Source of the DNA: Desulfitibacter sp. BRH_c19
Lineage (GTDB): Bacteria; Bacillota; DSM-16504; Desulfitibacterales; Desulfitibacteraceae
Reading direction: 5' to 3'
NCBI GenBank assembly: GCA_001515945.1
Contig: LOER01000047.1
Location: 1-64,000 of the forward strand
DNA length: 64,000 nucleotides
Each line of letters opens with the position of its first letter. Position 1 is the stretch's first letter. Positions 31,628 through 39,260 of this stretch are shown piece by piece. The notes below the pieces were generated by a model. The model had not been told where the DNA came from, did no database searches, and saw only the letters and a list, made by a program, of their open reading frames with translations. Made by a program: the position numbers and the translations under genes.

Positions 31628-33787
31628 CTACAGGTGTTTTTTAACAACATCCACAACCTCTGTGAAATCAATGCCCCACTGCTTTAGAGTTTCTAACGTA
31701 GGAACTGCATTTTTCGTCCAGCCTCTCCTAGCGTATACACTATCACACAGCTGATTGTATTGATCTCTTCTAAACTTTCTCATTGCCTGAAACTTATCCT
31801 CAGCCTTCATTTCTGTTGGATCAATTCCAACAATTTCTTTTAACTGTTTATCATACCTTTCTTCTCGTGATAGATACTCTTCAAGTGTAGCAGGCCCTAT
31901 GGAACGTGTTGGAGCACTATCATTTTCTCTGCTTCCATAACCCATCCTAAAGTTAAATACTCTCTGGAAGTGATATACAGGAGCTGACTGATTAATTAAA
32001 TCAGCGTTTTCCATTTTTCGTCCTGTAATTGCTGTAAACATCTGCACATAATTTTCCTGATGCTCAGGAACATTTTGTGCATTTTCCCTTGTATGGTTAT
32101 CTGCAGGAACTACATCATTCCAAGGAAGCTTACAAAGTCCCACTAAACCAAACCATGTCCTGAAAATCGGGAAATAGAAGAGAGCTTCCGCTTTATCTTC
32201 AAAGGTTGGGATTTGGTTGTTGACCATGTCCATGAAAATTAACCATGCTTCATCATGCTGTGGTCCCTTATTTGTTAATGCATATCCACCCTGCTGTGCC
32301 AAGGATTCCTTGGGCATATACATTGAATACTCTAGACCTTTGTTCTCCATTCCAATGTCATCTAAGAATTCTGCATCAGCACCATATTCCTTAACAAACA
32401 ATGCTTTAAGCTTACGTACCCCTAACCCTGCAATTTTACCAAAGCCTTCTCCTCTAGCCATTTGATGCAAAAGCTCTAAGGCAGCATCTTTATTGCCAAA
32501 GGTAAGCTCCAGACCACCAGTTTTTTCTTTATCAAGTATTCCCTCTTCATAGCAATCCATACAAAAACCAGTAATATTGCCCACCGAGATAGTATCTACT
32601 CCATAGGTATCGCAATAGAAGTTTGATTCTAGAACGTACTGACTATCGAAGATGCCACAATTTGAACCTACTGCAGCAACAGTTTCGTATTCAGGACCAT
32701 CCACAACTACCTTTTGTCCCTTGTATGGGCCAGTAAGCACTTCAAAATCTGGAACAACCTTACAGCAAGCTAATGTACATCCGAACCAGCAACCGTCACT
32801 CCCACTTAACTGAAACCACTTACTAAACTCCTTGGAAGAAATCTTATGGGCATCTGGATGGGAACCAAATTTAAAGTTATTAGTTGGCAACAAATCATAG
32901 TCATTCATAATCTCTGTTAAATAAGCTGTACCAGTCTTTCTCATTCTATTTTGCTTATCATCTAGATCGTGGATTTCTTTATGGAGCTTAATACCTAATT
33001 CAACTACTTTGTTCCTATCAGCAGGTTTATTAGAATCTCCCTTAGTATTGGAGTATTTAACAACTATTGCCTTAACCTTCTTATCTCTAAAAACTGTTCC
33101 TATACCCCCGCGCCCAGCCTGCTTAATTCTAAGTGCTTTTCTCTTAAGATCCCAAAACGAAAAGTTTAAGAGACCGACATGAGAATTTTCAGCCCCTTTA
33201 CCAGCTGAAACTACAGATATATTTCTCTTTCCATAGTCACTATCTGAATACATTTCTGTAAGATGCTCTGCAATAAGATGAGAATCTGTCTCTTCTAATG
33301 GCGCTTCTTCAATGGAAATACGACCATTGTCACCATCAATATAGATTATCACATCTTTTTCAGCTTTTCCTTGAAGCTCTAGTGCATCCCACCCTGAAAA
33401 CTTTAAATATGGACCAAAGTAACCACCAACATTACTGTCAATTGGTACTCCTGTTAAGGGCGATAAACTTACAACTAGTGATTTGCCAGTACCTGGGTAT
33501 TGGGTGATTCCCCCGATAGGCCCAGATGATATGATTACTTCATTTTCAGGATCATTCCATTTAGTATTCTCGTTAACTGCATTCCATAGATAATATAATC
33601 CGAAGCCTCTGCCGCCTATAAATTTCTCCTTAACTTCCTCTGTAACTGGTTTGCTTTCAATTTTATTTTCAGATAGGTTTATATATAGGGTACGATTAGT
33701 ATAACCCTTATCTACAGAACCAACATCATACTTCATTTCAGTTAAAAGCTTATGGGCATTTTTCATTTCTTCTATATTATAAGCCAT
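31628..33787 (-). CDS. aor: Aldehyde:ferredoxin oxidoreductase family, tungsten-pterin type
   Basis: A 719-residue cytosolic enzyme of the AOR family, which oxidises aldehydes to acids with ferredoxin, or runs in reverse. The N-terminal pterin domain shows GGRGFGLYYLWNAV, SSGPIGGITQYPGTGKSLVVSLSPLTG and IDSNVGGYFGPYLKFSGWDALELQG. The [4Fe-4S] ligands are in DGCWFGCTLACCKVVPDF, and a later Cys is in GLCKLPW. The bis-tungstopterin region contains YGVDTISVGNITGFCMDCYEEG and GLEYSMYMPKESLAQQGGYALTNKGPQHDE. It is a little longer than classic AOR (about 600-620) because of extra loops at the start and end. The ferredoxin upstream and the MoaD-like gene downstream form one operon. Confidence 0.92.
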   Translation of the reverse strand: MAYNIEEMKNAHKLLTEMKYDVGSVDKGYTNRTLYINLSENKIESKPVTEEVKEKFIGGRGFGLYYLWNAVNENTKWNDPENEVIISSGPIGGITQYPGTGKSLVVSLSPLTGVPIDSNVGGYFGPYLKFSGWDALELQGKAEKDVIIYIDGDNGRISIEEAPLEETDSHLIAEHLTEMYSDSDYGKRNISVVSAGKGAENSHVGLLNFSFWDLKRKALRIKQAGRGGIGTVFRDKKVKAIVVKYSNTKGDSNKPADRNKVVELGIKLHKEIHDLDDKQNRMRKTGTAYLTEIMNDYDLLPTNNFKFGSHPDAHKISSKEFSKWFQLSGSDGCWFGCTLACCKVVPDFEVLTGPYKGQKVVVDGPEYETVAAVGSNCGIFDSQYVLESNFYCDTYGVDTISVGNITGFCMDCYEEGILDKEKTGGLELTFGNKDAALELLHQMARGEGFGKIAGLGVRKLKALFVKEYGADAEFLDDIGMENKGLEYSMYMPKESLAQQGGYALTNKGPQHDEAWLIFMDMVNNQIPTFEDKAEALFYFPIFRTWFGLVGLCKLPWNDVVPADNHTRENAQNVPEHQENYVQMFTAITGRKMENADLINQSAPVYHFQRVFNFRMGYGSRENDSAPTRSIGPATLEEYLSREERYDKQLKEIVGIDPTEMKAEDKFQAMRKFRRDQYNQLCDSVYARRGWTKNAVPTLETLKQWGIDFTEVVDVVKKHL

Positions 33788-33809: not shown

Positions 33810-34193
33810 TTATAATTTTTCTATATAAAGTGCTTCAGTAGGGCACTCCTTGGCACATTTACCGCATGCAATACACTTAAATGGCTCTAAATAATCCTTA
33901 TGCATTCTCATTGATAATGTTGGGCAAAATCCTATACATGCAAAGCAACCCACACATTTATCTTTATCTATCATAATTACACCCAACTTACTTTTATGCA
34001 GTGCCATTGTAGGGCACACTTCCACGCACTCACCACATTGATTACATACATTTATGTCGTAACCTTCTGTTTTTTCACTTATCCTAATAGCAGACTTCTC
34101 CCTATCTTCCTTCTTAAAATTAACCTTGGAACATACTAACTCACAAATACCACAACCATCACACAATTCAGCCTTTACTCTTAAAGTTTTCAA
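33810..34193 (-). CDS. Polyferredoxin with four [4Fe-4S] motifs, AOR-associated
   Basis: A 127-residue protein made of four CxxCxxC(x3)C motifs: LCDGCGICELVCSK, VCNQCGECVEVCPT, KCVGCFACIGFCPT and KCIACGKCAKECPTEAL. The last three end in CP, as in bacterial ferredoxins; the first has CS and may be modified. It starts at TTG 34193, preceded by GGGGGGAG, and ends 22 bases before the AOR start. It is probably the electron-transfer subunit or partner that shuttles electrons between AOR and the ferredoxin pool. Cys spacing suggests up to four clusters. Confidence 0.92.
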   Translation of the reverse strand: MKTLRVKAELCDGCGICELVCSKVNFKKEDREKSAIRISEKTEGYDINVCNQCGECVEVCPTMALHKSKLGVIMIDKDKCVGCFACIGFCPTLSMRMHKDYLEPFKCIACGKCAKECPTEALYIEKL

Positions 34194-34283: not shown

Positions 34284-34322
34284 CAAAAAAAAGCTGTTTC
34301 CTTTAGAAAACAGCTTTTTTTC
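34284..34322 (-). terminator. Intrinsic terminator after the cytochrome fusion gene
   Basis: AAAAAAAGCTGTTT and AAACAGCTTTTTTT form a stem of about 10-14 bases with a short loop and T runs on both sides, so it can act in both directions. It lies between the cytochrome gene and the polyferredoxin gene. Confidence 0.8.
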
Positions 34323-34375: not shown

Positions 34376-36799
34376 TCATTTCTTTTCATCATTATACTCA
34401 ATATCTGCATCTGGGTGGTGATGTTTACACCATTCCTCAGAAACCTTTCCATCTACTAAAACTCTCCATGTTCCAGGATTTGCAGCACTACCCAGATACG
34501 CATGGACGATAACTGCAGATATAAGAAGAATAGAACTTAGTCCATGGATTGTGGCCGCAAAAATAAGCCAACTTCCACGAAGATTACCTCTTAATATTAG
34601 CGTTACCCCAGTCACAGCAAGTAGCACACTCAAGATACCTGAGATCCAGTAAAAAATCTTTTGTCCCGCATTAAAATGTCCAGCTGGAACATGACATTCT
34701 TGCTTTGTAAAGTACCCACCAAATTTCTTAAACCATTCAATGTCATAGGACTTAATTAGAGCATTCTTATACCAGACAGCACTCGCTGATAAAGAACTGA
34801 TTATAAAGAGAACACCAAGCAAAATGTGAATAGTTCTAGCGGAATAGTAGCCTCCTCCTAGATTTAAAATGCCCATTGCGTTTAAAGCAAAACCAATACC
34901 CGTAATAATTAGTAAGGTGGTACTGCCCATTCTGATGAAATGGGAAACTCTTTCAAGAGGAGAATAGCGCGTCATATTTCTTGGTAACTTAGCTAGATGC
35001 TTTCCTTTGGGGCCTATCACAAGATAGTGTACTACTGTAAATATAAAAGCACCCAAAATTCCAAGGAAAAGTATTGTTCTAAAGAAGTTTTGATATATGT
35101 AATAGTAGCTCATTATTGTCCTATTTAAACCTAATACATTGCCCTGAGTAGTATAAACCGGGACTCCATCTGGTCCCCAAGGATCCTTCAGGACTTGCCC
35201 CGCTATCCAATGAGAATTAGGGTTATGACAATCGGAACACCCTCCTGCCCCGTAAGCTTCTTCTGCAGAAAGGACATTGTGAGCTATCAGAAATGTTTCT
35301 TGCTCAATTCCATTACTTTCGAGTACTAAGAGATCTTCGCTTTCATCAATTTCGTATGTTTGACCACCTTTGACATAGACAGGCTGAATTATATCTAATC
35401 TTTCATTTTCAGCAAGAACATTAGAAAGTGAGTTAAGCATTGCAATAATTTCTTCCTGAGAATTTACTTCTCGATGTCCATTTTTTGTATCATTACTAAT
35501 CTTATTTATTATTGCATTAAAAGCTGCCTCTATCTCTGTTAGATATAATGGAACTATCGTACCATCTGTATTTCTATTACCCCACCATACCCCATTGACC
35601 AAATTTACGGGATATATGTAATCATCTAGCCTTTGTAAATGAGGTGGCAAACTGCCCTCTGTACTCTGCACATTCTCCATATCCCTGGTAAAATCAATAA
35701 TTTCACCTGTGGTTACATCTACAACACTAGTGGCTTCCATGGTTTGATTTGGTACATGACATCCTTGACAGGATATGTACTCTAGGTGGGAAATCTTAAT
35801 TGTATTATGTCTTGGCCTAGGTGCGCCCAATTCTCCTCTGTCATGGCACTCGCCACAGCTTAACATGGTTCCAGCAAACTCTGCAGCTGCACCTACTTCA
35901 GCCTTGCCTGTAGCTATCTGATGATTAATAGCAGGAGTATCATCTGTGTCTATAATAAAATGGCAGTCTAAACAATTCATTTCACCCTGGTTATGAATAT
36001 CAGGGTTGTTTTCCTTATTCCAAACAAATCCTGCTTGTCTTAAACCCATAGAACCGTGGCAAGAAAGACAATTTTCATCACTAGCGGATACAATCTCTAA
36101 ATCCACCGTGCCCCTTGTAGTAAAACTATCCAAATCATAAGTTACTTGTGGTTCCTCTCCTTCTAAAACACTTCCATCTACAGATCCTAGTCCAGCTCCC
36201 GCAGTTGCAGCCCATCTGAGGTTACCTTTTTCCATTTGTTCTACCCTAGCCTGATAATCATATCCAGGCAGATGACATAAAAGACAGTCAATTTCCACAA
36301 CCCCACTCTCAACCCACTGGCTATTATAATAGTCTCCATCGAAGCTTTCAGCTAAAGACGAATTCTCCCGCAAGGCATCATCATACCTTCTTAGCTGTCT
36401 ATCAAATTCCAGCATCCCTCCGCCTGGATGAAATGCTCCAAAAGCTAAGTTATCTTCATTAAGTCTAATCTTAGTAGCAAAATCAAAAGCAGTCATATCT
36501 ATTTCATCTGGACATTCATTTTCCTTTTCCGCTAACTGTCTATAACTTAAAACAGACCATCTTTCCCATTCACTAGTAAAGTGATAGCCATTGAGAATTG
36601 AATTATAATCATGGCAGGTACCACAAGTTTCTTTTGGACTATAGGGTTGGTCTAAGTTTTCCTCTTTTCTTGAATTTATGGCCTCTCCATCTTCTGTATA
36701 TAAAGTAACAGGCAAGTGGGCCAAAACTACATTAGAACCATTTATAATAAAAAACAGAAGCATACTAATTATTACTGCTTTCAAAATTCGTAAATACAT
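34376..36799 (-). CDS. Heptaheme cytochrome c fused to a formate-dehydrogenase gamma-like cytochrome b
   Basis: A protein of about 807 residues. ATG 36799 follows GGGAGGAAG; a longer GTG-initiated frame overlaps the site. A signal peptide/anchor (about 4-28) is followed by seven CxxCH heme motifs at about 59 (CGTCH), 172 (CLLCH), 244 (CLSCH), 276 (CLDCH), 315 (CGECH), 344 (CQGCH) and 521 (CSDCH). After that come four membrane helices (about 575-597 onwards) with histidines in VHYLVIGP, TIHILLGV and TIHGLSSILLISAVIVHAYLG, and the end NPGTWRVLVDGKVSEEWCKHHHP. That tail is characteristic of the formate dehydrogenase gamma cytochrome b. The two modules usually are separate, so this is an unusual fusion. 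It likely passes electrons between the quinone pool and an outside acceptor. Confidence 0.88.
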   Translation of the reverse strand: MYLRILKAVIISMLLFFIINGSNVVLAHLPVTLYTEDGEAINSRKEENLDQPYSPKETCGTCHDYNSILNGYHFTSEWERWSVLSYRQLAEKENECPDEIDMTAFDFATKIRLNEDNLAFGAFHPGGGMLEFDRQLRRYDDALRENSSLAESFDGDYYNSQWVESGVVEIDCLLCHLPGYDYQARVEQMEKGNLRWAATAGAGLGSVDGSVLEGEEPQVTYDLDSFTTRGTVDLEIVSASDENCLSCHGSMGLRQAGFVWNKENNPDIHNQGEMNCLDCHFIIDTDDTPAINHQIATGKAEVGAAAEFAGTMLSCGECHDRGELGAPRPRHNTIKISHLEYISCQGCHVPNQTMEATSVVDVTTGEIIDFTRDMENVQSTEGSLPPHLQRLDDYIYPVNLVNGVWWGNRNTDGTIVPLYLTEIEAAFNAIINKISNDTKNGHREVNSQEEIIAMLNSLSNVLAENERLDIIQPVYVKGGQTYEIDESEDLLVLESNGIEQETFLIAHNVLSAEEAYGAGGCSDCHNPNSHWIAGQVLKDPWGPDGVPVYTTQGNVLGLNRTIMSYYYIYQNFFRTILFLGILGAFIFTVVHYLVIGPKGKHLAKLPRNMTRYSPLERVSHFIRMGSTTLLIITGIGFALNAMGILNLGGGYYSARTIHILLGVLFIISSLSASAVWYKNALIKSYDIEWFKKFGGYFTKQECHVPAGHFNAGQKIFYWISGILSVLLAVTGVTLILRGNLRGSWLIFAATIHGLSSILLISAVIVHAYLGSAANPGTWRVLVDGKVSEEWCKHHHPDADIEYNDEKK

Positions 36800-36919
36800 C
36801 AAAAAACTTCCTCCCACCCAACTTACTAAGATTATTACTATTTTTTAAATATAAGCTTTACTGATTATCTATTTTCTTATTCTGATATATCAATGGACTT
36901 TTTATTCTATTAACAGGAA

Positions 36920-36944
36920 TAAAAAAAGAACTCCTAAGAGCTCC
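36920..36944 (-). terminator. Possible terminator after the Crp/Fnr gene
   Basis: GAGCTC pairs with GAGTTC (one G-U pair) around TTAG, followed by a seven-T run on the minus strand. It is a short hairpin and moderately convincing. Confidence 0.55.
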
Positions 36945-36956
36945 TCTTGAAACAAA

Positions 36957-39244: not shown

Positions 39245-39260
39245 TGTGATATATGTCACC
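39245..39260. promoter_or_regulatory. Crp/Fnr-type operator upstream of hcp
   Basis: TGTGATATATGTCACC contains TGTGA-N6-TCAC, close to the classic Crp consensus, centred about 75 bases upstream of the hcp start. The regulator of this family encoded at 36957-37643 is the obvious candidate to bind here. Confidence 0.6.

Follow-up and report, generated by a model that had tools for sequence, protein, structure and literature searches.

In the 64,000-nucleotide stretch of DNA analysed here (hereafter "the window"), a single gene encodes an 807-residue protein that joins an exported heptaheme cytochrome c to an FdnI-type cytochrome b. From sequence comparisons, we put the probability at roughly 60% that this protein is a single-chain membrane quinone:cytochrome conduit, descended from an octaheme fusion whose catalytic site has been lost. 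The window protein would represent a seven-heme derivative, devoid of the catalytic site, of an undescribed family of octaheme, apparently selenocysteine (Sec)-containing c-b fusions. In the proposed mechanism, the exported seven-heme domain would be tethered through an extra helix to an FdnI-type b module that holds two b hemes along with a site for quinone. These two b hemes and the chain of c hemes would carry the electrons exchanged by the pool of membrane quinones and a partner outside the cytoplasm. The ancestral octaheme fusion would probably have had an enzymatic head, in which a Sec or Cys stood next to a lysine-ligated catalytic heme; the lineage would then have dropped the Sec/Cys loop, the two thioether Cys of that heme, and the lysine, while the heme chain and the quinone-reactive module were retained. 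The anatomy of the protein, its conserved residues, the presence of the fusion in relatives, and the pattern of losses are observed directly; the parts of this scheme that we infer are the Sec insertion in the relatives, the catalytic role of the lost site, the direction of flow, and the identity of the partner.

Fusions of cytochromes c and b are known to serve as entry points into extracellular electron transfer, and the described ones carry compact heads of the CbcL type, whereas the window protein has an enzyme-type head minus its apparent catalytic centre and its relatives are apparently Sec multiheme enzymes wired to the quinone pool. If this is correct, a comparison of both forms could reveal the residues that decide between catalysis and conduction in a multiheme cytochrome, and the relatives would offer a respiratory selenoenzyme for testing.

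Architecture of the cytochrome c-b fusion

The open reading frame (ORF) has an ATG start and a GGGAGGAAG ribosome site, and an alternative GTG start at position 36817, six codons upstream of the ATG, is likewise open (Table 1). The protein has CxxCH motifs at residues 59, 172, 244, 276, 315, 344, and 521, seven in total, and all of them lie in its exported part, which bears out the single 807-residue chain with seven such motifs proposed in the initial annotation. These motifs are not a product of chance, since the six-frame CxxCH count across the whole window is only 11 and this is the sole ORF of at least 60 amino acids to carry the motif. The signal anchor proposed at the same time stands as an export signal only, as the N-terminus (VVLA/HLPV) looks like a cleavable signal peptide and not necessarily like an anchor.

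Table 1 Features of the fusion gene and its surroundings (window coordinates; residue numbers refer to the 807-residue protein).
Feature	Coordinates	Strand	Basis
Heptaheme cytochrome c / FdnI-type cytochrome b fusion gene, 807 aa	34376..36799	(-)	ORF, domain profiles, congener at 73% identity
Signal peptide, residues 1-27 (SNVVLA/HLPV)	36719..36799	(-)	Hydropathy peak 2.24; cleavage site inferred
Extracytoplasmic multiheme domain, residues 30-556, 7 CxxCH, distantly OTR-like	35132..36712	(-)	TIGR04314/TIGR04315 sub-cut-off scores; 1sp3 family-profile match
Deletion site of ~20 aa, Sec/Cys loop of relatives gone (ERWSVLSYRQLA; S82 stands in the Sec/Cys column)	36545..36565	(-)	Alignment
Heme motif 2 remnant FGAFH, residues 120-124, His kept; CxxCH in 28/28 relatives	36428..36442	(-)	Alignment
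Q-A at residues 255-256; K-R in 28/28 relatives	36032..36037	(-)	Alignment
Extra transmembrane (TM) helix, residues 571-598, between c domain and FdnI core	35006..35089	(-)	Hydropathy, AF2, alignment
FdnI-type four-helix cytochrome b core, residues 609-798	34406..34975	(-)	PF01292, TIGR01583, 1kqf_C alignment
Stem-loop and T-run, likely terminator, 3' of the cytochrome gene, between it and the ferredoxin/AOR genes	34290..34317	(-)	Read directly; not flagged by terminator scanner
Hairpin resembling a terminator, past the Crp/Fnr gene and upstream of the cytochrome gene	36923..36948	(-)	Terminator scan
Small 4Fe-4S polyferredoxin, order same in G001 and G002	33810..34193	(-)	Neighbour comparison
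Aldehyde:ferredoxin oxidoreductase (AOR)-family protein, 91% identical in G001	31628..33787	(-)	Neighbour comparison

The multiheme domain shows a distant kinship to octaheme tetrathionate reductase (OTR, 1SP3, TIGR04315), an enzyme with eight hemes and no fused b module, in contrast to the seven hemes plus b module of the window protein. Membership of TIGR04315 (OTR; 30.9 bits against a cut-off of 375) and of TIGR04314 (methano7heme, MmcA; 45 bits against 250) was rejected, as both scores lie below the curated cut-offs. A family profile of the c domain matched the OTR chain 1sp3_A at E 5.8e-7, a weak profile similarity, and heme motifs 4-8 were aligned in the same order between the window family and OTR. 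Whole-chain AF2 models of the window protein and of a Sec-form relative (mean pLDDT 65 and 72) were of low confidence in their c domains, and Foldseek searches with these low-confidence domain models returned no OTR or other usable match. In a 30-row comparison of the window protein and a congener (L003) with 28 relatives, six histidines outside the heme motifs were invariant in all rows, and these, together with H530, could provide bis-His ligation of all seven hemes.

The C-terminal part had been described as a four-helix cytochrome b ending in a formate dehydrogenase gamma-type tail. The FdnI type holds, with scores above cut-off for both PF01292 (54.1 bits, cut-off 30.1) and TIGR01583 (formate dehydrogenase gamma; 123.9 bits, cut-off 115.85), but the helix count does not: hydropathy and AF2 both indicate five TM helices, i.e. 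the extra helix and the four FdnI helices. The closest solved structure is FdnI (1kqf_C, E 3e-13), and the b folds of the AF2 models match the same chain in Foldseek, for the window protein at E 2e-7 (TMt 0.81) and for the Sec-form relative at E 1e-9 (TMt 0.84). Residues H620, H658, H752, and H766 align with H18, H57, H155, and H169 of Escherichia coli FdnI, the b-heme ligands of that protein, and N710-A-G-Q-K714 aligns with N110-A-G-Q-K114, residues of its quinone site; all four histidines and the N-A-G-Q-K stretch are kept in 19 of 19 fused rows. In contrast to FdnI itself, the window b module is fused to a cytochrome c, and there is no FdhA or FdhB gene beside it. The extra helix would permit an exported N-terminal domain to be joined to an FdnI core whose own N-terminus is cytoplasmic. 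Every one of the 19 fused rows has the histidine H591 (35027-35029; HY..IGP) of this helix, and it also appears in split b subunits; it is a possible additional ligand or quinone contact.

An exported N-terminal multiheme c domain and a C-terminal FdnI/HydC-like b domain in one chain are also the hallmarks of CbcL (Geobacter GSU0274), MtrH, and MtoC, described c-b fusions reported from 15 phyla (PMC6295460) and proposed to be quinone oxidoreductases (PMC6295460, PMC9129911). According to the former report, most members have six TM helices, with 4-5 in exceptions. By description, the window protein is set apart from CbcL, in which 9 hemes are packed into ~250 residues (30-279) ahead of six TM helices, by its 7 hemes in ~530 residues and five C-terminal TM helices, and its OTR-like c domain is not peptide-minimised, unlike the CbcL head.

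Retention of the FdnI ligands and of the N-A-G-Q-K stretch would suit transfer in the FdnI direction, in which an outside donor (a soluble cytochrome, a reduced sulfur compound, or a partner cell) would feed electrons through the c hemes to quinone and so build proton motive force, and fusions of the CbcL/MtoC type have been implicated in both directions (PMC6295460). Yet no donor-side gene lies near the cytochrome gene and the electrogenic direction is not decisive by itself, and we regard this reading as quite improbable. For a conduit, outward flow, i.e. quinol oxidation in a CbcL-like or PhsC-like manner, is more likely than FdnI-like reverse flow, the latter being possible. Electron delivery as far as the cell surface, which the initial annotation proposed, stays hypothetical.

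Distribution of the fusion and its octaheme relatives

The fusion is real: a congener (G001) has a protein of identical architecture at 73% identity, and fusions of the window type occur at about 17 further loci, spread over at least five phyla. A third congener holds a fragment with 75-76% identity to the window protein. An assembly artefact at the c-b join was rejected on these grounds, and the accompanying idea that homologues would always be a separate cytochrome c and cytochrome b is contradicted by fused homologues in several phyla. The broader claim of the initial annotation, that these parts form separate subunits in other systems, is likewise wrong in general, with CbcL, MtrH, and MtoC also being fused.

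Scanning a c-domain alignment against one genome per species for 84,980 species identified 72 loci, and the c and b parts were consecutive in 18 of these, with translated frames that form one chain, mostly of ~850 residues. Hosts of the single-chain fusions comprise Ammonifex, Desulfobacca, Syntrophobacterales, "Deltaproteobacteria", Thermoflexales (Chloroflexota), a Deferribacterota-labelled MAG, Eisenbacteria, and Sumerlaeota; a search of the genome contigs with the single window protein as query gave no matches. Two Ammonifex-type genomes (Bacillota), one of which includes a contig of Ammonifex thiophilus (G322), encode full-length fusions at 43-44% identity. Together with the congener, they supply the fusion in other Firmicutes that had been suggested as a check, and this kinship places the host in the Bacillota, in agreement with the Gram-positive host proposed initially.

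Split arrangements of a similar b subunit occur as well. At three Bacillota loci (L006, L008, L009), a b gene directly adjoins a gene for a hexaheme cytochrome c; the b proteins are 43-46% identical to the window b domain, extra N-terminal helix included, while the hexaheme partners are separate proteins of another family and not OTR-like. Comparable split pairs of a Cbc-like b and a multiheme c are found in Carboxydocella, e.g. CFE_2192-2193 (PMC6085454). In a Desulfobacteraceae-type clade (L029, L034-L038, L063), the same octaheme head, here with neither Sec nor Cys, carries a different short membrane tail that replaces FdnI, and the genes beside these heads encode ABC transporter components (iron/corrinoid type by look) and a radical SAM-like protein.

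Nearly all close relatives have eight CxxCH motifs, the first being spaced CxxxxCH in a few, and the octaheme Sec/Cys fusions (Ammonifex, Desulfobacca, Syntrophobacterales, Thermoflexales, and others) share the full-length architecture of the window protein at 34-44% identity. In 16 rows from several phyla, the conserved stretch SDGMMGKF-[TGA]-PPSFRQLA contains an in-frame TGA (L018 2244-2246, L019 6217-6219, and 14 more loci); the same column holds Cys in 4 tree rows and neither Sec nor Cys in 8 (seven Desulfobacteraceae-type and one Armatimonadota). Directly 3' of the UGA lies a hairpin, UUUCGCC-AGUU-GGCGAAA, with a distance and size about as expected for a bacterial SECIS; the outer stem is altered in the Ammonifex versions, which keep a shorter five-pair stem. 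The hairpin codons CGC-CAG-TTG-GCG are identical in all 16 UGA rows. Among 207 invariant positions with degenerate codons, only 12 use a single codon, namely the TGA, the four hairpin codons, and 7 other sense codons, and the four hairpin codons form the sole run of such positions. A selB gene is present in both Ammonifex-type genomes, the two genomes checked for it. We take the conserved UGA, the Cys homologues, the SECIS-like hairpin with its frozen codons, and selB together as strong evidence for a predicted selenocysteine at the in-frame UGA of these 16 relatives.

The profile of ExtKL (NF040886), the other known selenocytochrome, did not match the window protein or its relatives. A 2026 review includes "Tetrathionate reductase family octaheme c-type cytochrome" (TIGR04315) among GenBank-annotated selenoprotein families, without discussion (PMC13188914), so that selenium in OTR-like proteins has already been noticed at the annotation level; our literature search found no account of such heads fused with a quinone module. 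No neighbour of the Sec-form genes recurs in more than four loci, and these genes thus provide no operon clue.

Loss of the putative catalytic centre

Whereas the octaheme Sec/Cys fusions combine eight hemes, a Sec or Cys in a conserved loop, and a K-R pair, the window genus is without all of these. The window protein and its congener alone lack the ~20-residue loop, both heme-2 Cys, and the K-R pair, with the CxxCHPGGG of the relatives reading FGAFHPGGG in the window protein. The family-profile alignment pairs the column of the lost lysine (Q255 in both the window protein and its congener) with residue 153 of 1sp3_A, reportedly OTR's Lys153, the ligand on heme 2 (Mowat et al. 2004). The active-site heme of OTR has as its ligand a lysine from outside its CxxCH motif (PMC12285233); the window protein has a glutamine in the aligned column.

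In a c-domain tree computed with the loop and heme-2 columns left out, the window protein and its congener (100/100) nest inside the Sec-containing radiation when the tree is rooted on the Cys group, and their losses are therefore derived. A long-branch row joins the pair and leaves its exact sister uncertain. The catalytic centre appears to have been lost as a unit in these two proteins. With the loop, the heme-2 Cys pair, and the lysine lost, the original chemistry is most likely gone, which points towards a conduit role.

The protein might instead still be a terminal reductase of altered specificity, in which one of the seven hemes with an open or weak distal site would directly reduce a small extracytoplasmic oxyanion or sulfur compound with quinol electrons. 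Its c domain is "peptide replete" at ~76 aa per heme, a value that catalytic cytochromes typically show under the scheme of PMC7096707, and its gene is monocistronic without a conserved partner, like the Sec-form genes, but neither species has kept any of the residues that would make the OTR-type site (heme-2 Cys pair, K255, and Sec/Cys loop), and we consider this alternative unlikely. The conduit reading would extend to a wider evolutionary picture, to which we assign about even odds: a family of single-chain, quinone-linked Sec octaheme oxidoreductases across Bacillota, Desulfobacterota, Chloroflexota, and others, of which the window genus would be a natural "catalytic knock-out", having lost Sec loop, catalytic heme, and lysine together and passed from enzyme to electron wire with the quinone-module fusion kept.

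Genomic context of the cytochrome gene

The neighbours of the cytochrome gene encode AOR, ferredoxin, Crp, Hcp, and asparaginase. The AOR/polyferredoxin, Crp/Fnr, and Hcp setting reported initially is thus accurate as adjacency, but a functional link to these genes is weak, because terminator-like structures flank the cytochrome gene on both sides; the downstream stem-loop and T-run agrees with the separate terminator already assigned to it. In G001, an insertion of three restriction-modification-like genes separates the cytochrome gene from the Crp/Fnr gene (L012 13445-16435), which further weakens the link. The order of the ferredoxin and AOR genes downstream is kept in three species of the genus; outside it, the AOR linkage was not found at the Ammonifex locus. 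E. coli ydhYVWXUT, with AOR, ferredoxin, and cytochrome b under FNR, is a possible parallel and a lead, on which the papers listed for it offered nothing to build.

A Crp/Fnr box shared at the cytochrome promoter was considered and rejected: the short TGATATATCA upstream of the cytochrome gene is not conserved in G001, and the conserved palindrome GTGAYATATATCAC belongs to hcp, lying 82 bases upstream of that gene and kept in both species (window 39246-39259; L012 near 18,900). This palindrome is probably bound by the Crp/Fnr (HcpR-like) protein encoded next to it. Given its conservation upstream of hcp, Crp/Fnr and Hcp look separate from the cytochrome, and would form a nitrosative-stress module of the HcpR type.

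In the window genome (G000, rated 100% complete), no MenB, MenD, or MqnC was found above cut-off and MqnA/D gave no match; a MenA-like UbiA is present in both this genome and the congener, and MenB and MenD in the congener. This result weighs against the conduit reading, in which quinone is a putative partner. A genome without canonical menaquinone genes and a cytochrome without its heme-2 motif would also fit a decaying gene, with the loop and one heme already gone and quinone synthesis perhaps gone too. We regard this as highly improbable, as the frame is open over 807 codons, the congener shares both the architecture and the losses at 73% identity, the third congener retains its closely similar fragment, and the seven motifs, the six distal His, and all b ligands are intact in the window protein. 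Cytochrome c maturation genes are present. A single family search for multiheme proteins gave no clear candidate for an outside redox partner, which counts against the conduit reading. The other multiheme proteins recovered by this search were a short diheme protein and a tetraheme lipoprotein. The gene for the latter (L094; G000:C46 around 192,500) adjoins that of a reductive-dehalogenase-like protein, which suggests possible organohalide respiration by the host.
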